Positions 2,575 to 56,339 of a stretch of 56,339 nt of DNA are shown piece after piece. The DNA comes from a virus. The stretch's first letter is position 1. Every line of letters begins with the position of its first letter. Location of the stretch: positions 1 through 56,339 of IMG/VR virus record IMGVR_UViG_3300037246_000311, one strand, 5' to 3'. The notes beneath the pieces were generated by a model. The model searched no databases. It was not told the origin of the DNA and was given only the letters and a program-made list of their open reading frames with translations. The translations under genes and the position numbers were made by a program.

Positions 2575-3464
2575 CATATCTCATCCCCCAACAGCCAGCA
2601 AGCGGTGGCGTCACACTCAGCAGCTCGTGGAGATTCAGCACGACCGTCACGGCTGCGGATCCTGGTAGCAAGACCATGCGGTACGACGATGCCGTACCAG
2701 GTGACGTCACCGAGTTGTACATCAACGACATCACCAACGAGAACGGGGATGCCGGTACGATCCTGGGCCTACTCGCTGCCGGCAACCGGATCTATGTCCA
2801 GCAGCAGGATGACGCCTCGAGGGCAACCCTGTTCGAGTTGACCGGCCCAGCAGTTGACAACACTGGCTGGTGGACGTTGCCGGTATCCGTAGTCAGTACC
2901 CTGGCGTTGCCGGCGAACAACAAAACCTGCGCGGTGATCATGAACCTGGGAGCCGGTGGTGGTGGTGGCAGCAACATCGTCAACCTGGGCGTGGAAGATC
3001 TGACCGGCGTCAACACGATTGACCTCGAGGGCTGGCAGACCGGCGATGTGGTTCAGGGATTCAGGGTGGACTACTGGGACGTCAACATGAACGGCAATGC
3101 CCAGGATCCAACCATCAGACTGTACGACAGCACTGGTGCCGCGGTGGCTGCTGGTTACAACAACTTCTGCTGCGAGATGGAGCAGGCTGCTTTCAATCAC
3201 ATCATCACTGCCGAGACTACCCGAGCCAGGATGGATGGCGCCAGTGGCCTGGGCCTGTTTCACGGATTCTTCGAGGGTCGCCTGGTCGATGATGTGCTTT
3301 TCAAGTGGACCATCACCGGCCAGTTCTATGACGACTTCGATGACAGCGTGATGTTTTGTTTCTGCGATGTTGACATCGGTGACGTCCTGCACGGCCTTCG
3401 GTTGCAGACCGCGAACGTGGGCAGCTTGACTGCCGGCTTCCTCAACACGAAGTACTGGACATGA
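2571..3464 (+). CDS. Fibre-module protein, unknown
   Basis: The protein has 297 residues. The ATG at 2571 is chosen because it forms an ATGA overlap with the fibre stop; a GTG at 2559 is in frame but would lengthen the overlap. It has a Gly run (AGGGGGSN near residue 130) separating two beta-rich halves, and the second half is rich in aromatic and acidic residues (FFEGRLVDD, FYDDFDDS). No family is recognised. It lies between two fibre genes and ends in an ATGA overlap with the second, so a receptor-binding tip, fibre partner or chaperone is plausible but not shown. Confidence 0.65.
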   Translation: MTYLIPQQPASGGVTLSSSWRFSTTVTAADPGSKTMRYDDAVPGDVTELYINDITNENGDAGTILGLLAAGNRIYVQQQDDASRATLFELTGPAVDNTGWWTLPVSVVSTLALPANNKTCAVIMNLGAGGGGGSNIVNLGVEDLTGVNTIDLEGWQTGDVVQGFRVDYWDVNMNGNAQDPTIRLYDSTGAAVAAGYNNFCCEMEQAAFNHIITAETTRARMDGASGLGLFHGFFEGRLVDDVLFKWTITGQFYDDFDDSVMFCFCDVDIGDVLHGLRLQTANVGSLTAGFLNTKYWT

Positions 3465-6400: not shown

Positions 6401-7000
6401 TTCATGGAGTTCAATCTCGCCACAACGGGGAGCCTGACTGCTAACGCTGACATGACTGTCTGGGCGCAAGCGGATTTGACCACCAATGCCACCGGCAGTG
6501 GACCGGACAACACCATGGTGTACGATGGATTGATTGGTGGCCGAACCATCTACGCTGGCCATGCCATCTCCTACGTCTACTACTCCGATCCCACTGACAA
6601 TAGCCCAATCAGTCTCAACAACATGAGCGAACCCGTCACTGCCGCGTTTTCCAAGTTAGGCACACTGGGTGACATCCAGGATCTGTTCATCGGTGACAAT
6701 GTTGGCGACATCGAGTTGATGTCCTCGACCACTGTGAGAGCGGTCAATGATGGCGCACTGAATGGTCCGGTCAACGCCTTCTCGTACTCCAGTGTGGCTG
6801 ATCGGATGATCGCTGTCGGTAATGCCGGCGAGATCAAGACCCAGTCAGCAGCAGACCTCGAGACCGTTGGCACCTGGCGCGATGTCACGACTCCGTTTGG
6901 TGGTAATATCAACGATGTCGATTACAATGTCAGCGACGATATTTTCATTTGCGTTTGCGCCGATGGCGTGATCGCCAGATCAGTGGACGGCATCTCATGA
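3461..7000 (+). CDS. Tail fibre protein 2 with collar domain and two propeller-like repeats
   Basis: The protein has 1179 residues. Residues 1-115 are the same attachment domain as in fibre 1. Two copies of a shaft repeat (GHVEADISDL...DAAGSIA) begin near residues 150 and 199. Residues about 243-315 form a phage tail collar domain: GEIIAWP, DCNGQLL, FADLFAVLGYKYG, NVPDLRGQF. Residues about 522-856 and 859-1179 are two copies of a BNR/propeller-like module, each opening W..I.QDPF and containing (S/T).DAG.TW blades. The first copy uses more A/T-ending codons than the second, suggesting separate origins. It presumably binds the cell surface. Start and stop both lie in ATGA overlaps. Confidence 0.82.
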   Translation: MTTSQQSRLGSSPEEGMKAPVVAISSGQETLFGIGQSIAGIVIADMDRVAINAQTDPTENGIYNARGGKDWERATDFNNPDDVENGQLLSDGNTSAVYSIIAPDPWNPGVDVVNFGLLLSPVGFFWGAITGTISNQADLQIELDAKSDVGHGHVEADISDLQAYILDAAGSIASDGEFYARRNADWEVIDFSVFAPAVHGHVEADISDLGAYLLDAAGSIANDNQLWARANGAWQAFSTSSGTTGEIIAWPDADVPQNFLDCNGQLLNAVTFADLFAVLGYKYGGSGSNFNVPDLRGQFIRGTANGSGQDPDRLARTDRGDGATGDLVGTKQSYELQLHGHTVPFKFVGSTEGGGGDLEVRAQNTPTSNTGGSETRPRNINMNYIIRYTGGGSGITQPPSIEVQDDGVNLTTAVQLLNFIGFNLEQPILDQINISFGASVNNATYCPNYAFNFIDTTSWSIIGFDATNLFSVGRRLRFVDGASNYFGTILSSAFGADTTMNMSMESGDVLTSTITEVCLVNGGVAWQPISQDPFGGTAIRGIETGSIGVTQYWVICGDAGKVAFSTDAGLTWTVATTGTSENLNDVAYNRDDESFLVVGNTAVLLHSTDGENFALDTSSIPALPEFISGQADIYSCMYDRGGQGYRVQWAMSDVAQTGNAYTTDDTATWDSTPNIGTKVNVGEAKIGAIKSGLADTDLGMFYQQNIDLNQFGIIPDETGSSFVNVSSQAAVRGCRSFVDQNGSTVRIFVGRADGEIFHNTSLADDVTFGSSGINAFVESLSLERMIGVADDGKIGFCDQANYTANDAWQLVQNGSNPLASFTDVMWNEVDGMYVAVNDQGQILRSTNGLDTLPPPAPFVGWTAIAQDPFSGGNIQHIATGVIGGTEYWVIAGSTLIFTSVDAGVTWVSRTSGVSGSITTLKYDNTNEAFIAGCSNGDFTRTTNGTTWVADTTTVQAIPGLTGSGRFNGMVWSPGAALWSVFMEFNLATTGSLTANADMTVWAQADLTTNATGSGPDNTMVYDGLIGGRTIYAGHAISYVYYSDPTDNSPISLNNMSEPVTAAFSKLGTLGDIQDLFIGDNVGDIELMSSTTVRAVNDGALNGPVNAFSYSSVADRMIAVGNAGEIKTQSAADLETVGTWRDVTTPFGGNINDVDYNVSDDIFICVCADGVIARSVDGIS

Positions 7001-7479
7001 TTCATCACACGCACCTGGTACACGGTGGCGACAGGGTCAACCACCCGAACAAGATCGTAGTGCATTGCATGGGTGAGTTCATCATCGATCCGGATCCCAC
7101 CCACGCACCAGACTTCCTGGATGGCTACAAGCTGTCGGCCCACCAGCTGGTCGCACCGAACGGCGACATCTACATCTGCCGCGACGACGACGAGAGAGCC
7201 TGGCATGCTCGAGGCCACAACACCAACAGCCTGGGCATCGAGTTCCTGGTCGAAGGTGAGCACACCTACGCCACGTTCCTCGAGGCCATCAAGAGTCCCT
7301 ACGTTAGCACCGCGCAGTGGGAGGCCGGCGTCGATGTTGTTACCGCGTGGATCAAGGCCTACGACATCCCGCTCGAGAAGATCGTCAGGCACTCGGACAT
7401 CTCACCAGGTCGCAAGGTTGACCCTGGTGAAGGCTTCCACTGGCAGGACTTCCTCGACCGGCTCCCCGAGATCACCTGA
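6997..7479 (+). CDS. N-acetylmuramoyl-L-alanine amidase endolysin
   Basis: The 160-residue protein matches the amidase_2 fold, which cuts the bond between muramic acid and the peptide stem of murein. Candidate zinc ligands are His23 (VVHCMG), His132 (RHSD) and Asp142 (KVDPG), with Lys140 in the position of the T7 lysozyme catalytic Lys. The SAHQLVAPNGDIY and AWHARGHN stretches are typical. There is no signal peptide, so release depends on a holin. The ATG at 6997 overlaps the fibre stop as ATGA; an in-frame upstream start inside the fibre gene is less likely. It is followed at once by the spanins, completing a lysis cassette. Confidence 0.93.
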   Translation: MIHHTHLVHGGDRVNHPNKIVVHCMGEFIIDPDPTHAPDFLDGYKLSAHQLVAPNGDIYICRDDDERAWHARGHNTNSLGIEFLVEGEHTYATFLEAIKSPYVSTAQWEAGVDVVTAWIKAYDIPLEKIVRHSDISPGRKVDPGEGFHWQDFLDRLPEIT

Positions 7480-7856
7480 TGCAGTACATCGCCGGCTTTT
7501 TCATCATCCTCTCCGTGCTGACCGGCACCTTCGGGTTGTGGACCAAGATCCAGTTGCAGCAGGCCGAGGCCGAGATCCAGGTATTGATCATCGAAAAGGA
7601 TGCCGCTGTGGCCTCGCAGGTGGCCGCTGAAGAGGCGCAAGCATTCCAGGCGATTCAGGTACAGGAGTTCCAGGTTAGGAACGCACAGCTACAAGCGGAC
7701 GCCGTAGCGTCACGGAAGCAGGTCGAGTACACGAGAGATTTATTCAACGACCACGACTTCGCAAAGCTGATGGCGGCGAAGCCTGGGTTGATCACCAACC
7801 GAATGCAGAGGGCCACCGATGCGGTGCTTGCTGATCTCCGCGCTGTTACTGAGTAG
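7479..7856 (+). CDS. Inner-membrane spanin, Rz-like
   Basis: The 125-residue protein has one N-terminal membrane segment (residues about 4-22), then a long Ala/Gln/Glu-rich helix likely to form a periplasmic coiled coil (about 27-85). The C-terminal part (KPGLITNRMQRATDAVLADL) resembles the end of many Rz proteins. It would pair with the lipoprotein encoded in an overlapping frame to fuse the inner and outer membranes at the end of lysis. The start overlaps the amidase stop as TGATG. Confidence 0.88.
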   Translation: MQYIAGFFIILSVLTGTFGLWTKIQLQQAEAEIQVLIIEKDAAVASQVAAEEAQAFQAIQVQEFQVRNAQLQADAVASRKQVEYTRDLFNDHDFAKLMAAKPGLITNRMQRATDAVLADLRAVTE

Positions 7857-8163
7857 TGGCTGCTCCCTCTTCACGCCGAAGGAGCGCGTGGTGGTCCAGC
7901 ATGATAACGTCTACCTGGCAATCCTGTGTCCGGATCCTGCGAGGCCTGCGCAGATCTCCACGAGAAAAATTAGACCCCAGGTGGTGGAAGACAAAGTCGG
8001 GATTTTCTGGGTGGGCCTCACGCCTCAAGACTACGAAAACCTGGCAATCAATACACAGGAAACCATCCGATACATCAAAGACCAACACGGAGTGACCAGG
8101 TACTATCGGGAGTGCATCAAGGACTTCAACCAGTCGATCGAAGACCTGAAGGCAGCGGAGTGA
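7819..8163 (+). CDS. Outer-membrane spanin lipoprotein, Rz1-like
   Basis: The 114-residue protein begins with a lipoprotein signal, MRCLLISALLLSSGC, with lipobox LSSGC and lipidated Cys15. It starts out of frame inside the last 38 bases of the Rz-like gene, the overlapping arrangement known for Rz/Rz1 pairs. Its mature part is longer than lambda Rz1 and less Pro-rich. It is the last plus-strand gene before the convergent minus-strand block. Confidence 0.87.
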   Translation: MRCLLISALLLSSGCSLFTPKERVVVQHDNVYLAILCPDPARPAQISTRKIRPQVVEDKVGIFWVGLTPQDYENLAINTQETIRYIKDQHGVTRYYRECIKDFNQSIEDLKAAE

Positions 8164-20019: not shown

Positions 20020-20605
20020 TTCACTGACCAGGCGCATGCTGTCCCGACCGATCGGGGTAGTGTGGGCCGGCTGGGAATCGAATACCCACCGCCTGCAACA
20101 GGGTGGCTGGGAGTTGGCGGTCGAGTACGATGTCCATCGCGACATGTACCGGCTGATGATTCACAGTCACCAGGGCGCCTTGTACGGTTTGAGCAATGCT
20201 ACCTACCTGGACAAGCGCCTGGCTGAAGCCTGGAACGAAGACATGCCGAAGTCATTCCAGATGCAGGGCCTGGCCAGATCCCTCGAGGTCATCCGACACG
20301 AGGAGATAGGGAACTCGTTCGCCAACTTCCACCAGATCGACGCGACACCACAGATGGTGGACCGCAAGATCGAGCGCATCGAGGACTTCAATATATTCCA
20401 AACCATCACGACCAGGGCCGACGAGATCATCATCGAGAAGGCAGACATGAGCGTGATCGAACACCTGCAGGCGATCAAGGATCTGCAGTCATTCGGCCAG
20501 GAAGAGATCCGCAACCGGATCCTGGACGACCGCGCTCGAGGTGAGAACGCCAGCCCCGATGTCACCATCCATACGAACATCGTGCAACTGAGGCCGGTGG
20601 CATGA
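20000..20605 (+). CDS. Hypothetical protein
   Basis: The protein has 201 residues if the TTG at 20000 is used, or 189 from ATG 20036. The first half is mixed (GVVWAGWESNTHRLQQGGWE), and the second is helical. No family recognised. It ends in an ATGA overlap with the radical SAM gene. Confidence 0.6.
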   Translation: MNRGTFDSLTRRMLSRPIGVVWAGWESNTHRLQQGGWELAVEYDVHRDMYRLMIHSHQGALYGLSNATYLDKRLAEAWNEDMPKSFQMQGLARSLEVIRHEEIGNSFANFHQIDATPQMVDRKIERIEDFNIFQTITTRADEIIIEKADMSVIEHLQAIKDLQSFGQEEIRNRILDDRARGENASPDVTIHTNIVQLRPVA

Positions 20606-21501
20606 GCAGCCACACCAGAAACTTTACTGACGGCTATGCCGAGTGGGACGAGGGCGACACCTGCTACATCAGCGTGGCCTTCACCTGGAAACTTAACCAG
20701 GCCTACGACCATGCCATGTTCGCCAAGGCGCTCGGCAAGACCGTCAAGATCGGAGGACCGGCGCTGTTCCTGAACCAGATGAAGCACCAGGTCTTCGAGG
20801 TTGCGGACGAGGTCGGCGGCGACTATCCCGAGGCAGTACTCAAACACAATCCCGATGCCACGTTCGCCAGCCGCGGATGTCCTGTCGGCTGCTGGTTCTG
20901 CATCGTGCCGGCGATGGAAGGCAAGGAGTTCACCCTGCTGCCTGACTTCATTCCCAGGCCAATACTCTGCGACAACAATCTCAGCGGCCTGCCGATCGAC
21001 TACCAGCAATACATCGTCGCCCAGTACCAGGGCATGGGCGTGAAGCTGCTCGATGCCAACTCAGGATTTGAGCCGCGCACCTTCACCCAGGAAGTCTACG
21101 AGATCTGGAAGGGCCTGATCGATGAGGGCGGTGGTCCCTGGCGATTCGCTTACGACGACATGGACGAGACCGACGAGGTCATGGCCGTGATGAAAATGCT
21201 CGAGGGAACCAGGTCCAAACGCAAGCGCGTGTACACGTTGATCGGCAACGAGCCGTTCGATGATTGCATGCGCAGAATCGAGGCAGTGATTGCCGGTGGC
21301 TGCGAACCATTTGCCCAGCCATTGATGAAGCTGAACGCACTCGACAAGAAGCCCTGGGTCCGATTCGACTGGACCGAGAAGCGGCTCAAAGATGTGGCGC
21401 GATGGGTCAACCGCAACCTGTACAAGTACTCGACCTTCGAGGAGTACGGTGGCGCCGTGAAGACCAGGCATATCTCGCTCGAGCAGGGAGTACTGATATG
21501 A
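20602..21501 (+). CDS. Radical SAM enzyme
   Basis: The 299-residue protein has the cluster-binding motif CPVGCWFC (Cys93, Cys97, Cys100; CX3CX2C), which holds a 4Fe-4S cluster that splits S-adenosylmethionine to a radical. The first 60 residues, with VKIGGPA, resemble the last strands of a B12-binding-like Rossmann fold, seen upstream of some radical SAM domains. The rest gives a plausible partial TIM barrel (GVKLLDANSGF, RFAYDDM). The substrate is unknown. It sits in an early operon between a hypothetical and a Cys-rich protein. Confidence 0.85.
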   Translation: MSSHTRNFTDGYAEWDEGDTCYISVAFTWKLNQAYDHAMFAKALGKTVKIGGPALFLNQMKHQVFEVADEVGGDYPEAVLKHNPDATFASRGCPVGCWFCIVPAMEGKEFTLLPDFIPRPILCDNNLSGLPIDYQQYIVAQYQGMGVKLLDANSGFEPRTFTQEVYEIWKGLIDEGGGPWRFAYDDMDETDEVMAVMKMLEGTRSKRKRVYTLIGNEPFDDCMRRIEAVIAGGCEPFAQPLMKLNALDKKPWVRFDWTEKRLKDVARWVNRNLYKYSTFEEYGGAVKTRHISLEQGVLI

Positions 21502-23979: not shown

Positions 23980-24215
23980 TGGATCCTGAAGACAGATTTG
24001 TTACGCTGAAGATTGTCAACGACAAGCTGGCAGCTCAACCGATCATGCACGAGGTGGTCCAGCGGTGGGAAGATGTCGCCAACATCATGATCAAAAAGTT
24101 CATGGCCTCGAAGGAGTTCGACAGGTACGTCCAGGATGTCTTCACCCTGGGTACAGGCCGCATCGACATTGGTAAATGGGTACTGGAGAATTTTGATGAT
24201 ACTAACAAGACGTAG
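23979..24215 (+). CDS. Hypothetical small protein
   Basis: The 78-residue protein starts at the ATG of a TGATG overlap; a GTG one codon earlier is also possible. It is helical and contains PIMHEVVQRWEDVANIMIKK. The last 20 bases lie under the next gene's start. Function unknown. Confidence 0.6.
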   Translation: MDPEDRFVTLKIVNDKLAAQPIMHEVVQRWEDVANIMIKKFMASKEFDRYVQDVFTLGTGRIDIGKWVLENFDDTNKT

Positions 24216-24750
24216 GTTTTTGCAGAGCGTAGCAGCCAGCACCCTGTTCGTGGCGCCGGCAATCGTCAGGTCCGAAAGCCTGATGAAGATCTTCATACCA
24301 GGCCAGCGCGTCAAGTTCCGTGTGCCAGATCTCCGCGGACATTTCGCAACCAACCCCGAGCCGATGAACCTCCCTGCCCAGCGTGAGATGACAGCGACCG
24401 AGGTCCTCGAGCGCCGTGAGGAAGTCAAGACAACCTGGGCGAAGCGTTGGAACGATCACATGCATGAGGACAACGCCAGGCAGATGATGCAGGCCGCGGC
24501 AACGAAAGCGGTCAACGAGAAGATCGACGCCGAAATTTACAGCCAGCTCCAGGGACACGAGATCACTGGCGTGTGGCTCGATGAATCCGATGTGGTCAAG
24601 AACCAGGTCGCCTACCACATTGAACAGAACACCGGCCAGGTCCAGGCATTCACCGATCACCCGATGGGTTGGATCCCCTGTGATGGCCGTGAGCTGTCAG
24701 CGATCGAGCACCCGAATCTGTACATGGTCCTGGGCAACAAGTATGGATAA
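24196..24750 (+). CDS. Twin-arginine-exported protein with permuted collar-like segments
   Basis: The 184-residue protein begins MILTRRRFLQSVAASTLFVA, with the twin-arginine motif RRRFLQ, a hydrophobic stretch and a probable cleavage after VRS. After it comes VKFRVPDLRGHF (residues about 38-50), then a helical middle (AREMTATEVLERREEVKTTW-like), then GWIPCDGRELSAIEHPNLYM ending LGNKYG at the very C-terminus. In tail collar domains (as in the fibre at 3461) the order is CDG, then LGxKYG, then PDLRG, so here the order is inverted. Known cases of exported phage proteins of this sort have no established function. Confidence 0.72.
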   Translation: MILTRRRFLQSVAASTLFVAPAIVRSESLMKIFIPGQRVKFRVPDLRGHFATNPEPMNLPAQREMTATEVLERREEVKTTWAKRWNDHMHEDNARQMMQAAATKAVNEKIDAEIYSQLQGHEITGVWLDESDVVKNQVAYHIEQNTGQVQAFTDHPMGWIPCDGRELSAIEHPNLYMVLGNKYG

Positions 24751-24934
24751 CGTCATCCCATTCCCCAGGCGCAAGCGAATCATCGTTGATGACTTCCGAC
24801 TCACGCCTGACCAGGCAGTAGCTGTCGGTAATTGGGCAGAGCAAACCCTCGAGGTCATTGAAGCCGAGATCATGCAAGACGACCTGGACGATGCGATCCG
24901 TAGAGTCCTCCGACAAGAGGGCCTGATCGAATGA
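24743..24934 (+). CDS. Hypothetical small protein
   Basis: The 63-residue protein starts MDNVIPFPRRKRIIVDDF and then has helices (GNWAEQTLEVIEAEI). The VIPFPR start is common in small phage proteins; function unknown. Its start overlaps the TAT-exported gene's stop by 8 bases. Confidence 0.6.
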   Translation: MDNVIPFPRRKRIIVDDFRLTPDQAVAVGNWAEQTLEVIEAEIMQDDLDDAIRRVLRQEGLIE

Positions 24935-25236
24935 CAGATCCTCGAGGACCAACCTGGCGAATAACAGCAAGCGGTCACCGCTGTGGCTGGCCTGGCTGCG
25001 AGGAGTTCATCGCTGGCCGGCTATGGGGATGTCGTGACCACTGGCTCCTGGTGCCTGTCAAATTGCGGGACGCATACATGGAAGCTGGATCCGGACAACA
25101 GAAGATCGGGGTCAGCATCCAGGAGAAGCCATCAGTCATGGCGGTCGATCAGGACATCCAGCACTGGGTGCGCCATCAACACAGCTCGGCTCATCTCCTG
25201 GGCATCACGAGCTACCCGCCTGATGATGCGGCCTGA
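24931..25236 (+). CDS. Small zinc-finger protein
   Basis: The 101-residue protein carries CGWPGCEEFIAGRLWGCRDHW, a Cys-x4-Cys...Cys-x2-His type zinc site often seen in small phage proteins. It is followed directly by the terminase small subunit gene in a TGATG overlap. Confidence 0.68.
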   Translation: MTDPRGPTWRITASGHRCGWPGCEEFIAGRLWGCRDHWLLVPVKLRDAYMEAGSGQQKIGVSIQEKPSVMAVDQDIQHWVRHQHSSAHLLGITSYPPDDAA

Positions 25237-46002: not shown

Positions 46003-46397
46003 AGATTTCCTACTATTTTTCCCTGTTTTTCCCACTCCTGTTTGTGGTAGGGATTGCCGATGCTCACAAGAAGCACGGCCACCACCACGAGGCGCCTGTG
46101 ATCACCAACGTGACCGAGGTGACCAACGTGACCAACGTGACGACCGGCATCGAGGACGACGAGTTCAATGGTGCGATCGCCGCGGCCCTGGCAGCTGACG
46201 CGATCCACTGCACCACCAGCTCACGCAAGCACCAGATGGGGATCGGGATGGGCAACAGCGATGGCCAGAGCGGTGTCGCCATTGGCTACTGCCACAGCGT
46301 CGAGATCCAGAACCAGCCGGTCATGATCGGCATCAAGGCCTCGAGCGCCGAGGACACTGATGCGAAATATAGTGTCGGCCTCAACTGGACTTTCTGA
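45999..46397 (+). CDS. Exported protein with YadA-like outer-membrane anchor
   Basis: The 132-residue protein begins at GTG 45999 with a signal peptide (KISYYFSLFFPLLFVVGIADA). The mature part opens with HKKHGHHHE, then a stalk-like repeat (VTEVTNVTNVTT). The last 70 residues, with GAIAAALAAD, MGIGMGNSDGQSGVAIGY and a final VGLNWTF, resemble the YadA anchor: four strands per chain and a terminal Phe that outer-membrane proteins need for insertion. No passenger domain is present. Trimerisation and outer-membrane insertion are inferred. Confidence 0.72.
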   Translation: MKISYYFSLFFPLLFVVGIADAHKKHGHHHEAPVITNVTEVTNVTNVTTGIEDDEFNGAIAAALAADAIHCTTSSRKHQMGIGMGNSDGQSGVAIGYCHSVEIQNQPVMIGIKASSAEDTDAKYSVGLNWTF

Positions 46398-46927
46398 TGA
46401 ACGAGGATACCAAAGACTACCCCGAGCAAGATACCGAAGAGGTAATCCTGTCTCGTGCCGGCAAGATCAAGCAGTGGTTCGAGATTGCGATGGCCACCAG
46501 GAAAGTTGCCATGCTGATCTGGGGCCTGGTGGTTGCCACTGGTGGATCCCTGGTTGTTGGCCAGGTCACCGATACAACTCCGATCCGCGATGCCGCGGTG
46601 GCGATCGGCCTGGTCGATGAAGCATCCAGGGACATCGTCGGCAATGACGCGATCTATGACGAGCTGTCGAATCTCATCGAGGATGTGGAGCGCCTGGACG
46701 CGCTGACGGCCCAGCTCCAGGAAGAGATGACCAAGCACGGCCACCCACTGCCCGAAGGAATAGCAGGAATAGCGGGAATAGCAGGCCCAGCTGGCCCACC
46801 AGGTCCGCAAGGTCCTCGAGGAGTAGCGGGAGCAGCAGGGCCTCCAGGAAGTGCAGCTGTGAGCGAGGCAGCAATCCGTGCCGAACTCGAGAAGCTCCTG
46901 CCACCAAACCACACGAGCCTACACTGA
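46397..46927 (+). CDS. Membrane protein with collagen-like tail
   Basis: The 176-residue protein has an acidic N-terminus, a membrane helix (VAMLIWGLVVATGGSLVVG), and a collagen-like GXY stretch near the end (GIAGPAGPPGPQGPRGVAG) followed by a helix. Collagen-like repeats in phage proteins form trimers. Its relation to the preceding exported protein may be functional, as both could be trimeric. Confidence 0.65.
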   Translation: MNEDTKDYPEQDTEEVILSRAGKIKQWFEIAMATRKVAMLIWGLVVATGGSLVVGQVTDTTPIRDAAVAIGLVDEASRDIVGNDAIYDELSNLIEDVERLDALTAQLQEEMTKHGHPLPEGIAGIAGIAGPAGPPGPQGPRGVAGAAGPPGSAAVSEAAIRAELEKLLPPNHTSLH

Positions 46928-48833: not shown

Positions 48834-51800
48834 ATGCCATTAGACGCCTGCATCGCCAAGGTTGGAACACTGTCTGAAAACGACATTGCCTTCCTGCGCA
48901 AGGAGATCCTCGACGGCAGCACCGACGAGCAGGCGATTGCCAACCTCGAGGTCCTGGTCGAGCAGGAGGCCGAGGCCCTGGTCGCCAGGATCGAGGAAGC
49001 GGGTGGCACCATCGAGCGCGAGGCGCCACCTGTGGACCGGCCTGACGCTGCCGAAGCGGCATCGCTCGAGAACAACATCAAGCTGGCCGAGGCTACCAAG
49101 TACAACACCAACCGCGAACTGAAGGAGGTGATGCAGGCCAACGTGCTCCAGGCCTACCTGGAATCGCAGGGCTTCGAGGACACTGGCACTCTCGAGGAGC
49201 GCACCGCGGACAACGCCGCGCACCTGGCTGCAGTCGGTACCGCCGATGCAATCTTCGCGCTGCAGGACAACGCTGACGCTGTCGGCTGGTACGACAGGAC
49301 AGTGAGCAAGGCGCTCGAGGTCCTGGGTACCATCCACCCCGAGATCCTGACAGATCCCAACGCCAGGTTTGCATTCACCTTTGCCCTGGCTGTGACCAGC
49401 AACGGCATGAAGGTGGACAACAATTTCAAGATGGCTGAAGCCGCGTATCGTGCCTACAAGAAGGATGGCAAGATGCCGAACAACATCGGTGAGGGTACCG
49501 CTGGCGGCAAGATGAATGAGCACATGGACCTGTTCAATAAACTGGTTGATGAGATGGGCCTCGAGAACTTTGGCGCGATGTTCCAGAGCCAGTTCACTGT
49601 TGCCCAGCTGAAGCGGATGGACCTGGACCCAGGAGGTGAGCTGGTGGACACCGTAGTGTATGGTGCCGCGGTCCTCGGCCCCAAGATCGGCAACGGCTTC
49701 TTCATGAATCTCAACGGCGAGTACGACCAGCTGACCATGGACCGCTGGCTGATGCGGACCTGGGGCCGGTGGACTGGATCCCTGATCAAGGATCGACCTG
49801 ACCTGGTCGAGGCGAAGGTCGCTGACATGGAGAAGAAGCTGACCAGGATGTCGAAGGCCTCGAAGGCCTGGGGGTTTTTCCAGAAGACCCTCGACATGGA
49901 TCTCACCAACCATGGCAAGCCTGGTGGTCCGACCTACATCGAGATCGCACAGCGGATCCAGCTGAAGTCAGTCAACCCCGATTCCAGGTCCGACATGAAC
50001 CGCACTGTCATCGGTAGTCAGCTGCGCAAGCTGGGCAATGGCCTGGCCAAAGATGTGGACGGCCAGAAGGAGGCGCCACAGAACGGAACCGAGCGCAACT
50101 GGATCAGGGGAGTGTTCACTACCATCCTGGAAAACATGCATAACCAGGGCTATACTGATATGACGATGGCCGATCTCCAGGCCTTGTTGTGGTACCCAGA
50201 GAAGCGGCTCTACGACAAGGCAAAATCTGAAGAGGATGTGGCCAACGGTTACGACCTGGATGAGGCGCCCGACTACGCGAACGCTGCCGCTAAACTGGCA
50301 AAGGCGCGGGGCATCAAACCTGCCGCAATCAAGTCGGCACAACAACGAGCGGAGCAGCAACATGCGGATCAAGTCAGCGCAGGACGAGCAGCAGGAGAAC
50401 TTCCAGCACAAGCCGCGGAAGGGCAACCGGCAGCTGCTCGAGGCCTTGCTCGAAAAGAACGCAGCGCGTTCCTTAGAAGGAATATCCTCGTCCCAAATCG
50501 GGTTAGTCGAAGCGATAATGAGAAAGCTAAAAGTTACACGGCTCCGAGCCGAGGAACTCTTGGAAATGTACTCGGCGTAATACACAAACCCAGGCAGGAT
50601 TACTCCAACGAGTTAGCTGCAGCTGAAGTCACACCGATGACCATGGTGGAGATGGAAGCCACACCTGAGAACGCGGACCTCTTCGCGCAATCCATTCAGA
50701 ATATCAAGGACGCTCACCCCGAGGGTGCCGCGGTCTATGTGTACCCGACTGACGAGTACGCCGGCATGAAGCTGTTCGTGAACGAGGACCAGACTGCCGG
50801 CTTCGCCGTGAAGGCAGATGGCGACATCGTCAGCGTCTTCGCCGCACCGAATCGTGACGAGCCTGGTCGCGTCTACTCGATGCTGGCCCTGGCCGTCGAA
50901 CGCGCTGGCGGTACCAAGCTCGACGCATTCGACACCATCCTGCCCCAGGTCTACGCGATGGCCGGCTTCGTAGAAGTTGGTCGGGATCCCTGGGTAGAAA
51001 AATTCAAGCCAGCTGACTGGGACAAGGCGACCTTCATCGAGTACAACAACGGTGAGCCTGACATCGTCTACATGGAATATCAGAATGCTGTGCCTGAGTA
51101 CTTCGCGCAGTCTGATGTCAGCAAGGACGAGGCCCTGATCGAGATCGACAATGCCCTGGAAGATGGGTCCATCAAAATCACCCAGGCCGAGGCTGAAGCC
51201 CTGGTCGAAATGGGATTCACTCACCCCGATGTCCGGAGGACTGAAGATGACAAAGCTACTGAAGCAGCTGCTCGATCCCCAGAGGAAGCAGCCCAAGCCC
51301 GAGAAGATTACGCCGCAGCGACGAGCCGAACTGACAGCGAAGTATCTGCCGAGTTCGCAAGAGCGAAACGTGGCGAAGCTGTTACATTCCTCCACCGAAG
51401 CCATGTAGCTTTCTCGCACTTCGATGACGGGTACCTGGGCGGCAACACTGGCCGGCCTACCGCGCACCTGGGACACTTCCTGACTGCAATGTCTTACGAT
51501 GCGCCTGAGTTTGGCGACAACCTCGTTACCGTTACTTTCCAATTCAAGAAGCCCCTGGTCATCTCGTCCGAAGAGTTCGTCGCGATGGGCGACCGATCTA
51601 TCCAGGCAAACAAGCAGGACCGCCTCGACCTGATGGCCCAGGGCTATGACGGCATCCTGGTCGATGGCCTGGAGTGGGCGATCGCATTCGAGGGTAAAAA
51701 CCTGACGCTGGCGCACGACACATCAGGCCTCGAGTGGATGGAGGCTGAAGTGGAGAAGGGCGAGGGCTTCCTGGAACAGCCTGACCGCGGACGCTACTAC

Positions 51801-54800
51801 CCTGACGTCAGTGGCAAGCGCATCATCCAGCTGACCCAGGCTGCAGATCTCTCGACCTTCTTGCACGAGACCGGACACATGTTCCTGGATATTCAGCGGG
51901 TGTGGGTCGAGAAGTACGGCATCAACGAGAACCAGCAGGCCATGCTTGACTGGCTCGGCGTCGAGAGCTTCGAGGACATCACCAGGGAACAACACGAGAC
52001 CTGGGCCGAGACCTTCGAGGTCTACCTGCGCGAGGGCAAGGCGCCATCGATCGGCCTGCGCCGAGCGTTCGCATCATTCACTTCCTGGTTGAAGCGACTG
52101 TACCGGACGCTGTCGGATCCGCGGCTGACTCGTGCCAAGATGTCGCCTGAGATCACCGAGATCTTCGACCGCATGCTGGCCACCGAGGCTGAGATCGACC
52201 TGGCCGCGAGTACGCCTGAGTACGGTGAGCTGTTCCAATCCCAGGAGCAGGCCGGCATGACTGATGAGCAGTGGAAAAAGTACAAGAAGCTGGCCGAACG
52301 CAAGAACAAAACTGCCGAGGCCACGCTCGATGCCAAGGTGATGAAGCAGTACAAGCAAATGAAGTCGAAGGAGTGGGCAGCTGAGAAGGCGCCACTGGTC
52401 GAGGCCGAGGTCGAGCGCCTGGGCCAGGAGCCAATCCACCAGGCAATCGCTGAGATGTCTACGGACGAGGGCAAGGTGGACTGGCACATGCTGCGCGATG
52501 CGATCGGTGGCTGGCCGAACGGTAAGAACTGGATCGGCAAGGCTGTCGGTGGTGGCCAGGACCCTGGTCTCGTCGCTGAGAAGTACGGCTTCGCCAGCGT
52601 CAAAGACATGTACGAGCAGGTGAAGGAATCCCCGACAATGAAGCAGGCATCCGAGCAGGCTGCTGAAGAGATCATGGTCCAGCGCCACGGCGACATCCTC
52701 AACGATGGTACGCTCGAGCAGGAGGTCCGTGAGGCGATGCTGAACGATGACCAGGCCGAGCTGCTACTGATGGAGCTGAAGGCCGAGAACCGCAAGGCGC
52801 CGAAGATCAATCGGAAGAACCTCCAGCACGAGGCCGAGCTATTGATCGGGACCTACACCTACAAGGAGATCCGACCGAACAAGTTTTACAACCAGATGAT
52901 CAAGGCGGCGAAGGCTGCAGCTGCGGCTGTTGCCAAGGGCGAGGACGCCACCCCGCACAAGATCCAGCAGCTGGCGAACCACTACCTGTACAGGGCAGCG
53001 ATGGACGCCAGGACCAAGATGGAGAAGAGCCGCAAGTTCGTGAAGGCAGTGCAGAAACGGATCGAAGCCGGCAAGATGAAGCCCACCCAGGTGGACCTGC
53101 AATACATCCAGGCTATGGCCAACCTGTCCAAGGCCTACGACATGCGACTGAAGCCAGAGGAACGAGCGCAGTATGCTCGGAATGTCATGGACTTCTTCGA
53201 GGCCCAGACCAATCCCGAGAACAAGGACGAGGGCGATCTGGTAGGCCTGGAGATGCTGGACCCGAACGTGATCGCAGCCATCCAATTCCGACACAAGAAC
53301 GGCACCCTCGAGGGCTTCGAGCTGAAGACCTTTGACGAGATGACTGTCGGTGAGATGAAGGGCGTGGTCCTCATGCTCGAGCACCTGCGCTATGTCGGTG
53401 GCCAGATCGCATCGAAGGGCAGCGAGGAGGCTGCTGACATGCGCGAAGCCGGCCTCGAGTCCATCGATGAGAATGGTGGCAAGGATTATCCTGTCTCACC
53501 GAAGAAGGTACGCGCCGGCAAAATAGCCAGGCTGACCTGGGGAGACTACTGGGCATCACTGCCCTCGATCGTCAACATGGTCCGCAAGATGGATGGCTTC
53601 AAGGATGGGGGCTGGGCGTTCGAGAATATCCTCAAACCACTCCAGGCTGCGGTCGATAAAAAGTTCGAGCTGCAGATGCAGATGTTCAAGCAGATGGAGA
53701 CTTTCATGAGCGGGATCTCTGGCGTAGGCCTGCGCCAGGATGACGCGCTGCCATTCACAACCGAGGATGGCCTGGAGCAGGAGTACACCAGCGAGGAGAT
53801 CTTCATGCTGGCTGTCTACTGGGGAACCGAGTCCTCGAGGGCGGCAGTCATGGAGGGCCACGAGATCAACGAGAATGACGCCATGGCGTTGATGGAGCGG
53901 CTCACACCTGAACAGCTTGAGCTGGCCAACCAGGTCTGGGCGATGAATGAATCACAGTGGCCTGACCTGGCAAGAACAGCCAAGGCAATGATGGGTGTGG
54001 CGCCACCGAAACTGATGGCTACTCCGTTCACCGTCAACGGTGTGCAGATGACGGGTGGCCACATGCAGCTGATGTACACCAGCCAGAGCACTCAGCTGGC
54101 CGATGAACAAGAGCGAGGCATGCGGACCAGCAACGTGGTACCGATGGCGGCAGGATCCACCCACGCCAGGAAAGGATCCGGAGGCAGGGTCGTGAACCTC
54201 GATGCGAGTAACATCTCGATGTCGATTGAAGACAAGACGCAGTACATCGCCTTCTCTGAAGCCGGCAGGCACCTGCGATCAATCCTGAACAATCGCGAGA
54301 TCCAGGACATGATCGTGAAGAAGCACGGCGCCCCGTACTACCGGAACCTGGTGCATGCCGTGGCCGCGGTGGCCGCTGCCCAGCCGGCACAGGAATCTTC
54401 ACAATGGATTGCTCGAGCATCGAAGTGGGTACGCCAGTCAGCGACCTTGATGCACCTGGCCTACTCGTTTCGTAACGTGGCACAGCAGCCAGCTGCAGCA
54501 GCAGCGTCGATCAGGGAAGTCGGGATCATTCCGTTCATCCAGGGCGTGGGCATGTTTGGATCCAACTACTCAGCCATGACTAAAATGATCAAAGAGAAAT
54601 CCAAGTTCATGGAGAATCGTGCCGACCTGGTCAACCGTGAAGCGCGTGAGACCATGAAGAAAGTCATGGCGACTACGAAGTTCAGGATCACCTGGCGTGG
54701 CATCGAGGGGCAGTACTGGAATGCATTCAAGTCCTACGGCTTCATCATGCAGACCATGGTCGATTCAGCTGTGGCCTATCCCACCTGGTACGCGAAGTAC

Positions 54801-55466
54801 AACCTGGGCATCGAGGCGCACGGCGACGAGGCCAGGGCGGTCATCGAGGCTGACAGCGCGGTGGCCGAGTCAGTGGGATCTGGTTCCGACCTGCACCTGG
54901 GCCGGCTGCTGCAGAGCAACCAGACCGAGCTGGTGAAGAGCATGACGGTCTTCCAGTCCTGGTTCAACGCCTACTACCAGCGCCTGTACAAATCCTCGAA
55001 GGGTGGCGAAACTTTTCTTAACCCTGCCTTCTTGATGGAAGCCGTGGTGCTCCCCATAATAATCGCTAACCTGACACAGCTGGCAATCGGTGACTGGCCA
55101 GACGAGGAGGAGGAGTGGCACGAGTGGGCAACAAAGAACTACCTGAAGTTCATGATCGCGACCTTGCCATTGGTCAGGGAAGCCGGCTCGGTGTGGGAGG
55201 GATTCACCCCGACTTCACCGATCACCACCCTGGTCACCGCGCCGTTCAGATTGGAGAGCGAGATCGATTCCTACCTGGAAGGCAGGCAGACCCTGATGAA
55301 GCTCATGTCTGATGTTGGCAAGACCGTGACCTCGGTAGTACCAGCTCCTGGATCCGGGAACATCTGGCGCGTAATCGAGTACACCGATTCATTCAACCAG
55401 GGCAAAGAGGGCGACATCTACAACCCGTACCTGGCATTTACTGAGGGGGCTGACAAAGACAAATAA
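48834..55466 (+). CDS. Giant polyvalent virion protein (2210 residues)
   Basis: Order of recognisable parts: helical N-terminus (1-505); a low-quality stretch (509-582) that coincides with a nested gene; a GNAT-like domain (about 594-745, MLALAVERAGGTKLDAFDTI); another nested-gene stretch (804-857); an ADP-ribosyltransferase-like domain (about 848-962, FLHRSHVAFSHFDDG); a zincin motif HETGH (1011-1015) with AETFEVYL downstream; a long helical region; and a C-terminal module (1880-2210) shared with the left-end copy. Such proteins may be injected with the DNA and modify host proteins; that is known for some families and inferred here. Confidence 0.82.
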   Translation: MPLDACIAKVGTLSENDIAFLRKEILDGSTDEQAIANLEVLVEQEAEALVARIEEAGGTIEREAPPVDRPDAAEAASLENNIKLAEATKYNTNRELKEVMQANVLQAYLESQGFEDTGTLEERTADNAAHLAAVGTADAIFALQDNADAVGWYDRTVSKALEVLGTIHPEILTDPNARFAFTFALAVTSNGMKVDNNFKMAEAAYRAYKKDGKMPNNIGEGTAGGKMNEHMDLFNKLVDEMGLENFGAMFQSQFTVAQLKRMDLDPGGELVDTVVYGAAVLGPKIGNGFFMNLNGEYDQLTMDRWLMRTWGRWTGSLIKDRPDLVEAKVADMEKKLTRMSKASKAWGFFQKTLDMDLTNHGKPGGPTYIEIAQRIQLKSVNPDSRSDMNRTVIGSQLRKLGNGLAKDVDGQKEAPQNGTERNWIRGVFTTILENMHNQGYTDMTMADLQALLWYPEKRLYDKAKSEEDVANGYDLDEAPDYANAAAKLAKARGIKPAAIKSAQQRAEQQHADQVSAGRAAGELPAQAAEGQPAAARGLARKERSAFLRRNILVPNRVSRSDNEKAKSYTAPSRGTLGNVLGVIHKPRQDYSNELAAAEVTPMTMVEMEATPENADLFAQSIQNIKDAHPEGAAVYVYPTDEYAGMKLFVNEDQTAGFAVKADGDIVSVFAAPNRDEPGRVYSMLALAVERAGGTKLDAFDTILPQVYAMAGFVEVGRDPWVEKFKPADWDKATFIEYNNGEPDIVYMEYQNAVPEYFAQSDVSKDEALIEIDNALEDGSIKITQAEAEALVEMGFTHPDVRRTEDDKATEAAARSPEEAAQAREDYAAATSRTDSEVSAEFARAKRGEAVTFLHRSHVAFSHFDDGYLGGNTGRPTAHLGHFLTAMSYDAPEFGDNLVTVTFQFKKPLVISSEEFVAMGDRSIQANKQDRLDLMAQGYDGILVDGLEWAIAFEGKNLTLAHDTSGLEWMEAEVEKGEGFLEQPDRGRYYPDVSGKRIIQLTQAADLSTFLHETGHMFLDIQRVWVEKYGINENQQAMLDWLGVESFEDITREQHETWAETFEVYLREGKAPSIGLRRAFASFTSWLKRLYRTLSDPRLTRAKMSPEITEIFDRMLATEAEIDLAASTPEYGELFQSQEQAGMTDEQWKKYKKLAERKNKTAEATLDAKVMKQYKQMKSKEWAAEKAPLVEAEVERLGQEPIHQAIAEMSTDEGKVDWHMLRDAIGGWPNGKNWIGKAVGGGQDPGLVAEKYGFASVKDMYEQVKESPTMKQASEQAAEEIMVQRHGDILNDGTLEQEVREAMLNDDQAELLLMELKAENRKAPKINRKNLQHEAELLIGTYTYKEIRPNKFYNQMIKAAKAAAAAVAKGEDATPHKIQQLANHYLYRAAMDARTKMEKSRKFVKAVQKRIEAGKMKPTQVDLQYIQAMANLSKAYDMRLKPEERAQYARNVMDFFEAQTNPENKDEGDLVGLEMLDPNVIAAIQFRHKNGTLEGFELKTFDEMTVGEMKGVVLMLEHLRYVGGQIASKGSEEAADMREAGLESIDENGGKDYPVSPKKVRAGKIARLTWGDYWASLPSIVNMVRKMDGFKDGGWAFENILKPLQAAVDKKFELQMQMFKQMETFMSGISGVGLRQDDALPFTTEDGLEQEYTSEEIFMLAVYWGTESSRAAVMEGHEINENDAMALMERLTPEQLELANQVWAMNESQWPDLARTAKAMMGVAPPKLMATPFTVNGVQMTGGHMQLMYTSQSTQLADEQERGMRTSNVVPMAAGSTHARKGSGGRVVNLDASNISMSIEDKTQYIAFSEAGRHLRSILNNREIQDMIVKKHGAPYYRNLVHAVAAVAAAQPAQESSQWIARASKWVRQSATLMHLAYSFRNVAQQPAAAAASIREVGIIPFIQGVGMFGSNYSAMTKMIKEKSKFMENRADLVNREARETMKKVMATTKFRITWRGIEGQYWNAFKSYGFIMQTMVDSAVAYPTWYAKYNLGIEAHGDEARAVIEADSAVAESVGSGSDLHLGRLLQSNQTELVKSMTVFQSWFNAYYQRLYKSSKGGETFLNPAFLMEAVVLPIIIANLTQLAIGDWPDEEEEWHEWATKNYLKFMIATLPLVREAGSVWEGFTPTSPITTLVTAPFRLESEIDSYLEGRQTLMKLMSDVGKTVTSVVPAPGSGNIWRVIEYTDSFNQGKEGDIYNPYLAFTEGADKDK
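50362..50580 (+). CDS. Nested gene A inside the polyvalent gene
   Basis: This 72-codon frame begins with ATG, has GGAG 7 bases upstream, and reads MRIKSAQDEQQENF, then LLEALLEKNAARSLEGISSS and IMRKLKVTRLRAEELLEMYS. In this stretch 52 of 72 codons end in G or C, against 25 of 73 in the long frame. The first 29 codons are typical for this phage (28 end in G or C). It lies just before the GNAT-like domain. No family recognised; a helical protein. Confidence 0.6.
   Translation: MRIKSAQDEQQENFQHKPRKGNRQLLEALLEKNAARSLEGISSSQIGLVEAIMRKLKVTRLRAEELLEMYSA
51247..51408 (+). CDS. Nested gene B inside the polyvalent gene
   Basis: This 53-codon frame has the strong ribosome site CGGAGGACTGAAG before ATG and reads MTKLLKQLLDPQRKQ, then LTAKYLPSSQERNVAKLL. 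In it 38 of 53 codons end in G or C, against 21 of 54 in the long frame over the same bases. It lies between the GNAT-like and ADP-ribosyltransferase-like domains. Basic, helical; function unknown. Confidence 0.6.
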   Translation: MTKLLKQLLDPQRKQPKPEKITPQRRAELTAKYLPSSQERNVAKLLHSSTEAM

Positions 55467-56339
55467 TGGTTACTTCCGCTATTTCGAGAATGGGCAAGTC
55501 GCCCGAAGAGGGGATCAAGGCGCCGGTCAAAACATCGACCACGACTAACATCACGCTGAAGGGTACCGGCCAGGTTCTCAACGGAGTGGTGACCAGCACC
55601 AAGGATCGTGTCCTGGTCAAGGACCAGACCGCGCCGAATGAGAACGGCACCTACAACGTGGGTCCGGATGCCTGGGAACGCACGACCGACATGAACGCTG
55701 CCGACGATCTCGAAGTCGGCATGCTGATTGTGGATTCCAACACCCAGGTCATTTACAGCATTTCGTTCACAGGACCCTGGTCACCAGGTATCACCGCTCT
55801 CAGCTTCAACGTGCTGATCGGCGCCATGCCTGGGCAGATCGTCCTGACCAACGCCAGTGCGGTTGACCTGGTCGATCACGATGTAGCCCTGGTTACCGGC
55901 GCACTGGATCCAAGCATCTCGCAGCACCTGGAGTACGACTTCCAGGCCATCCAATCCAAGAGCGATGACACCACCGCGGCACCGCTGTTCCTGAATCCGC
56001 TCGGCAGTTATACCCAGGGACCGCAGATCATCGCGGGTAACCCAGGCCTCGAGCAAGCCGGCATCACCATCGATGGCGTTCTCTACCAGAGCGCACTGAA
56101 GGCGTCAGATATTGGCGGCACGAATGTCGCGGCGGTCATCATCCATCGTCACTCGACAACCCTGCCGGCAATCCTGGTTGGCTCAAGAACGGCCACCGAT
56201 GACGACACCCATGCCATCGTCGCTGACAACGACACACTGCTGGCCATCATGGCCGTGGGTCATGACGGCACGGACTACAAGCAAGGTGCGCAGATCCGCT
56301 TCCAGGTCGATGGCACTCCTGGCGCTGGAGACATGCCTG
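54564..56339 (+). repeat. Diverged right-end repeat of the window start (2-1753)
   Basis: The sequence covers the end of the polyvalent gene and the fibre start, in the same order and orientation as 2-1753. Divergence is high on the polyvalent side and low towards the window end. One 24-base length difference lies in the polyvalent part; there is none in the fibre part. Confidence 0.85.
55466..56339 (+). CDS. Tail fibre protein 1, second copy (3' end outside window)
   Basis: The frame is open to the window end and gives 291 residues. It matches the start of the 880-2574 gene without any insertion or deletion up to the end (base 56339 corresponds to base 1753). The N-terminal third differs at several positions and the later part is almost identical. 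It starts in the same TAATG overlap with the polyvalent gene as in the left copy. Confidence 0.85.
   Translation, partial: MVTSAISRMGKSPEEGIKAPVKTSTTTNITLKGTGQVLNGVVTSTKDRVLVKDQTAPNENGTYNVGPDAWERTTDMNAADDLEVGMLIVDSNTQVIYSISFTGPWSPGITALSFNVLIGAMPGQIVLTNASAVDLVDHDVALVTGALDPSISQHLEYDFQAIQSKSDDTTAAPLFLNPLGSYTQGPQIIAGNPGLEQAGITIDGVLYQSALKASDIGGTNVAAVIIHRHSTTLPAILVGSRTATDDDTHAIVADNDTLLAIMAVGHDGTDYKQGAQIRFQVDGTPGAGDMP

Follow-up and report, generated by a model that had tools for sequence, protein, structure and literature searches.

We describe a small phage protein, P0001, that at the level of sequence consists of a Tat-type leader followed by four virion-protein pieces, in the order collar C-terminal half, portal helix, major capsid protein (MCP) helix and collar N-terminal half. 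P0001 is encoded in a 56-kb virus genome (IMG/VR record IMGVR_UViG_3300037246_000311; the window analysed here is the whole stretch of 56,339 nucleotides). The protein may be a virion-protein mimic, carried on its leader, that acts as a decoy or trap for proteins that bind capsids or portals, a reading to which we give a probability of about 45%. The arrangement that an earlier note on this DNA had called a permuted collar exemplifies a general design of leader-borne virion-protein mimics.

Position and conservation of the P0001 gene

The gene lies among small genes, and profile searches placed the terminase subunits downstream of it at 25236 and 25860 (features are listed in Table 1). A GGAG ribosome-binding site stands 7 nt 5' of the ATG. 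A further in-frame ATG is found upstream at 24136, and the starts of two homologues in related phages, L128 and L005, are equivalent to 24196. L128 occupies the same slot and is homologous over its full length (173 aa, 55% identical), while L127, also in this slot, corresponds to the C-terminal part at 77% identity. The gene at the same slot in L005 is shorter (99 aa), lacks the C-terminal collar and carries portal pieces instead of collar, and no P0001-like gene was present at the equivalent slot in L131, L133 or L134. Three Nei-Gojobori comparisons with P0001 gave dN/dS of 0.16/0.46, 0.38/0.82 and 0.38/1.10 (ratios of 0.35, 0.46 and 0.34), which indicates that the gene, tail included, is under purifying selection in the P0001 lineage that this analysis covers.

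Table 1. Features of the P0001 gene and of its counterparts in the same genome
Feature	Coordinates	Strand	Evidence
P0001 CDS, mosaic Tat-leader protein, 184 aa	24196..24750	+	ORF, ribosome-binding site, same-position homologues L128/L127/L005, dN/dS 0.34-0.46
Putative Tat-type leader, residues 1-30 (TRRRFLQ...APAIVRSESLM)	24196..24285	+	twin-Arg motif; core of moderate hydrophobicity; c-region basic; 113 phage ORFs have the leader with the same fixed spacing
Collar C-terminal half-motif, residues 36-53 (GQRVKFRVPDLRGHFATN)	24301..24354	+	F.VPDLRG.F of own fibre collar; kept in L128
Portal-like helix, residues 58-82 (NLPAQREMTATEVLERREE...)	24367..24441	+	portal HMM f3 positions 381-406; 9.2 bits
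MCP-like helix, residues 84-121 (RWNDHMHEDNARQMMQAAATKAVNEKIDAEIYSQLQGH)	24445..24558	+	own MCP pairwise E 3e-7, own-genome E 1.5e-5; HMM f74 19 bits
Collar N-terminal half, residues 146-184 (TGQVQAF...CDGRELS...LGNKYG)	24631..24747	+	Pfam Collar 1.8e-10; own fibre collar E 3e-6
Next gene, 63 aa, ATG overlaps P0001 stop (TATGGATAA)	24743..24934	+	identical junction in L127 and L128, different next genes
Portal / head-tail connector, portal counterpart of P0001	30939..32510	+	PF12236 1.5e-46, phrog_332 7e-58
MCP, capsid counterpart of P0001	34453..35298	+	same family f74 as orthologue L128:16822-17670
Fibre with normal-order collar (residues 244-300), collar counterpart of P0001	3461..7000	+	pairwise match

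The genome has several other features of note. A 299-aa protein at 20602-21501 carries a cysteine motif like that of radical-SAM proteins (Pfam E 0.0036, below cut-off), and in the protein at 46397-46927 there is a short repeat of collagen-like sequence (GPAGPPGPQGPRG...; Pfam Collagen 5e-6, slightly below cut-off). At 6949-8163, overlapping spanin-like ORFs lie downstream of an Amidase_2 endolysin (1.4e-21), and one of these ORFs has a lipoprotein-like signal; this region is likely the lysis cassette. The two ends of the record (2-2574 and 48834-56338) hold homologous, non-identical gene ends and fibre starts (MVTSAISRMGKSPEEGIKAPV...), which represent strain variants of a circular overlap or, alternatively, a genuine duplication whose copies have diverged; the start of the fibre at 3461 is a third relative of these fibre starts.

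P0001 carries two collar halves in swapped order

The earlier note had pointed to an early PDLRG and a CDG...LGNKYG segment at the stop, and both are present, with FRVPDLRGHF at residues 41-50 and a C-terminus that reads CDGRELS...LGNKYG*. The swapped order, in which the PDLRG half precedes the CDG half, is real and is conserved in the syntenic L128, where FRVPDLRGH and CDGRELSAIE.P.LY.VLGNKYG* are both retained; L127 retains the C-terminal half. The C-terminal half-collar is statistically solid (PF07484, E 1.8e-10, 41 bits against a cut-off of 24 bits, residues 151-184 on profile positions 7-40 of 57), and in the comparison with the collar of the fibre at 3461 it matched over residues 146-184. 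The PDLRG piece by itself is weak, with E 0.01 for residues 36-50 against the same fibre collar. We considered that this N-terminal PDLRG had arisen by chance, as L005 has PDLRT, and dropped the idea because L128 shows FRVPDLRGH and the L005 stretch is portal-like.

As also noted earlier, P0001 ends directly after YG, and L128 and L127, both of which close with CDGREL...LGNKYG*, have the same end. The stop sits within the start of the next gene, a junction kept in L127 and L128 despite their differing next genes, so that the end point of P0001 at YG may be partly a product of gene overlap.

The stronger claim, that the protein is built from a permuted collar, stood only in part: the halves are indeed swapped, but the roughly 95 residues between them match portal and MCP, and L005 has portal sequence at the place of PDLRG. 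P0001 shares with the PF07484 collar its C-terminal 34-39 residues and the PDLRG motif; unlike in that domain, the half-domains are swapped and far apart, in a 184-aa leader protein without a fibre. A complete collar, with CDG, then LGxxYG, then PDLRG, is absent from P0001, in which PDLRG lies about 110 residues upstream of the C-terminal half, and a profile search found no fibre domains in this protein, which adjoins the terminase genes. AlphaFold2 run on P0001 with three homologues gave a pLDDT of 42.5 and a pTM of 0.23, a model that is uninformative on contact between the collar halves.

The residues between the collar halves resemble portal and MCP

An own-genome search matched P0001 residues 75-122 to the MCP, and none of 4000 shuffles did as well as this stretch against HMM f74. 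The orthologue of this MCP in L128 is of the PF19821 Phage_capsid_2 kind (5.8e-23). Only about 40 MCP residues are matched in P0001, and a complete HK97-type fold is absent from it. For the portal, residues 44-90 gave the score listed in Table 1 against an HMM of 15 related portals, with 0 of 4000 shuffles as high, and the pairwise match of residues 58-82 to the phage's own portal (INMPDIGREMTAYEVSERMKQ) was weak (E 0.06). The portal stretch is nearly absent in L128, where it scores almost nothing, which makes the portal piece less secure than the other three. Portal sequence (GLSPAEMSLPDLRTLNDMTAEML, aligned to GrsPatvvLPdaktLqamtltll of the portal) occupies the stretch of L005 that corresponds to PDLRG, and a second portal motif, ITATEV, lies downstream of it.

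A large family of small phage genes shares a Tat-type leader

The Tat pathway can carry folded proteins and hitchhiking partners, and alphaproteobacterial binding proteins have twin-arginine signal peptides that typically read ...APAIVRAQ. The P0001 leader reads LTRRRFLQSVAASTLFVAPAIVRSES, which we also write as TRRRFLQ...APAIVRSESLMKI; it has the [S/T]-R-R-x-F-L-[K/Q] motif, a weak hydrophobic core and a basic c-region residue (TRRRFLQ...APAIVRSES), and it fits the family pattern RRx[FL]...PAIVRxxSLM[PKR][VIL] as RRRFLQ...PAIVRSESLMKI. The signal peptides of these binding proteins share with the P0001 family the RRxFL, the A-rich core, the APAIVRA end and the basic residue near the cleavage site. 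Unlike them, the phage leader has a conserved SLM[PK][VI] after the presumed cleavage site, is found almost only in viral contigs, and heads a tail that is no enzyme or binding protein.

Export of P0001 by the Tat route, as first suggested, agrees with this leader, but the best NCBIfam match to residues 3-22, TIGR01409, scored 12.6 bits against a cut-off of 16.7, and the same model was also sub-threshold in L128 (15.4) and in the family member L279 (16.3). We infer from the leader that P0001 and its family are probably targeted to the Tat system. The accompanying remark that such export is rare for phage proteins was wrong, since this leader occurs widely among phage contigs.

A DNA pattern for PAIVRAxSLM matched at least 120 stretches in IMG/VR viral contigs, nearly all of them small ORFs in which RR stands at a constant distance and the tail varies; the contigs are metagenomic, some are fragments, and genes were called by longest-ORF rules. 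Conservation extended beyond the searched positions: in a 113-member logo, Arg at -24 was present in 95% and Ala before PAIV in 89%, and the leader Met was followed by P/K/R in 92% and then by V/I/L in 95%. The leader variant PA[L/V][V/I]RA was rare (16 matches). A slightly stricter pattern, with the extra demand for P/K- and V/I/L-type codons after Met, gave 6 matches in 84,980 bacterial and archaeal genomes (257 Gb), most of them in alphaproteobacterial records, and the five that were readable were again small leader-plus-variable-tail ORFs, so the leader is close to virus-specific. Together, these data show at the sequence level a fixed-length leader, RRx[F/L]...APAIVRAxSLM[P/K/R][V/I/L], that is almost confined to viral contigs and stands at the start of the small genes of a large family, spread over many unrelated phages.

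Searches of isolated phages by tblastn with leaders and several whole leader proteins gave no leader match, at low power for 32-aa queries, and P0001 as query found collars and chance matches only. We found no description of such leader-fragment proteins in the open-licence literature, and the family is apparently undescribed so far.

Many tails of the leader family match the MCP, portal or collar

We compared 45 leader genes, P0001 included, with the proteins of their own genomes, drawing on 41 further viral contigs. At E<1e-3, 14 of the 45 tails matched an own-genome protein of at least 200 aa, against 6 of 1354 other short genes (Fisher p 5e-18) and 1 of 900 shuffled tails. At E<0.05, the best own-genome matches (n=21) were to MCP in 17 cases, to portal in 3 and to a 149-aa unknown protein in 1. 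Since MCP and portal make up only about 10% of large-protein length in these genomes, 20 of 21 would be expected by chance with p ~1e-19.

The same classes emerged when the tails were searched with HMMs of all 164 large-protein families of these contigs, unselected. At E<1e-2, matches were obtained for 37 of 113 tails (31 MCP, 5 portal, 1 collar), and none of the 113 matched any other of the 164 families at that cut-off. Among the controls, 79 of 1353 short genes matched, over some 50 families, with 4 of 1353 in the MCP, portal and collar classes (p ~1e-39). The cut-off of 1e-2 was chosen after looking; independent of that choice are the result at 1e-4, with 20 tail matches (18 MCP, 1 portal, 1 collar) and MCP in 0 of 1353 controls, and a replicate in which the HMMs were frozen and applied to 31 new loci, 16 of them from a disjoint leader variant, with 25 new tails, some redundant. 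Matches in the replicate at E<1e-2 were to four MCP families (f19, f41, f43, f115), one portal family (f62) and collar, with no others, and all three own-locus matches were of these classes (MCP, portal, MCP).

The MCP matches fell in seven mutually different HMM families (P22 coat PF11651, GP7 PF20911, two of phrog_9953, phrog_371, phrog_334 and the PF19821 kind to which the MCP of the P0001 phage belongs), and pairwise BLAST added a T4 Gp23-type MCP match for the tail of L015. Positions in the source MCP varied (3-64, 75-127, 228-321, 360-397), with an N-terminal bias, and tails were 35-65% identical to their own MCP kind. Residues 56-109 of L018 matched annotated coat proteins of isolated phages (4e-7). 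A PHROG scan of 112 tails placed few members per family, those found being mostly head and tail proteins; the yield was low because the MCP families of PHROG are too heterogeneous to pick up pieces of 40 aa. The tails of L007 and L279 contain a collar in normal order (Pfam 1.5e-13 and 1.9e-16), and other members have none. By eye, the tails of L017:10199-10549, L059:4964-5371, L040:4224-4481 and L024:5165-5425 resemble tailspike or pectate-lyase starts, a fibre domain and an SGNH-hydrolase motif.

About two thirds of the tails had no recognised source, and no TerL, other terminase or tail-tube pieces were seen among the tails. Known immune sensors also use terminase and tail-tube proteins. Two control short genes without a recognised leader, L150:6118-6552 (G006:26118-26552) and L244:3118-3441 (G039:3118-3441), matched their own MCP; capsid-piece genes thus do not require the leader and may be a wider class than the leader family. 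Overall, sequence comparison shows that the tails vary among phages and that a large share of them consist of short stretches of MCP, portal or collar of the kind that the phage itself has, with no other tested protein family as a source.

Discussion

The design of these proteins suggests that their tails bind what capsids and portals bind. In the mechanism that we favour, the leader would target the protein to TatBC, which can bind it at the inner membrane, and the folded tail could be exported by itself or together with a partner bound to it. A tail that retained a head, portal or collar binding surface and was unable to assemble would thereby decoy or trap some factor able to recognise these virion parts, and that factor would be held at the membrane or dragged across it. 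Candidate targets would be a host defence that senses capsid or portal, the capsid hijacker of a satellite, or the assembly intermediates of a competing phage.

Host factors that sense MCP include CapRel (PMC9712102) and TIR systems (PMC11312562), so an MCP mimic could have a partner. Tab and Tai are phage-borne blockers of virion assembly (PMC10884400, PMC11364771) and, like the proteins of the P0001 family, are small, carried by phages and linked to virion structural proteins; unlike the P0001 family, they are not described in the abstracts of those papers as fragments of their targets. Tat is established to carry folded proteins and their bound partners (PMC10924467). Together, known MCP sensors, phage-borne assembly blockers and Tat carriage of partners favour a decoy or trap at the inner membrane. 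CapRel and the capsid-sensing TIR systems are host sensors, whereas the P0001 family would consist of phage mimics. The Tab and Tai proteins are not known to have a Tat-type leader.

Several observations weigh against the decoy reading. Export is predicted only, and the Tat models stay below cut-off; the two control genes match their own MCP without a leader; some two thirds of the tails lack a recognised source; and terminase and tail-tube pieces are missing although immune sensors use those too. In P0001, moreover, the portal piece is short, weak in pairwise alignment and nearly absent in L128.

It is unlikely that the tail, held by its leader at the inner membrane, is an assembly tether whose MCP or portal piece co-assembles and so nucleates or positions proheads. 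The sources are almost only MCP and portal, the two proteins that initiate the shell, and in two unrelated phages tandem leader genes carry one the N-terminal and the other the C-terminal piece of the same MCP (L100 / G042:49500-50260 and L014 / G003:5701-6287). However, the pieces derive from many different regions of the MCP and some tails are collars, which fits binding mimicry better than a defined lattice contact. We regard as equally unlikely a role in interference, with tails serving as dominant-negative head or portal fragments against co-infecting related phages or satellites. Identities of 35-65% to the own MCP kind point to relatives rather than self, and assembly-blocking proteins are among the known defences (PMC10884400, PMC11364771), but export would take the protein out of the compartment in which assembly occurs, and the phage's own MCP would also be threatened.

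Less likely again is that the tails are a by-product of gene birth, the leader alone being selected and any sequence captured behind it, with late transcripts or neighbouring genes copied so often that capsid pieces result. The high variability of the tails and the leader genes directly upstream of the MCP gene in G006 and G021 would agree with this, but neither TerL nor any other gene besides those for MCP, portal and collar is among the recognised sources, capsid-like residues are kept over large divergence, and the tail shares in the purifying selection seen in the P0001 lineage. The least likely explanation is that the P0001 halves fold together, within or across the subunits of a trimer, into a working collar or receptor-binding domain exported against superinfection at the cell surface: both halves are kept in swapped order in L128 and both are missing from the shorter L005, and the phage's own fibre reads KYGGSGSNFNVPDLRGQF, close to the joined ends of P0001, but the intervening portal- and MCP-like residues, the family members with a normal-order collar or none, and the uninformative AlphaFold2 model speak against it.

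A more specific form of the decoy reading, which we consider rather doubtful, is that alphaproteobacterial phages use Tat as a counter-defence, with pieces of their own capsid or portal baiting sensors or satellite hijackers and the resulting complex being held or exported. We found no description that accounts for a leader near-confined to phages and joined to fragments of their own capsid or portal over at least seven capsid families, and the pattern implies strong selection for a shell-protein mimic sent to the membrane or periplasm. Many hypothetical proteins of environmental phages thereby gain names and a testable role. If the decoy reading is true, the family would reveal a novel kind of counter-defence or of conflict between viruses, and its tails, used as bait, would offer a direct route to host factors that recognise capsids.
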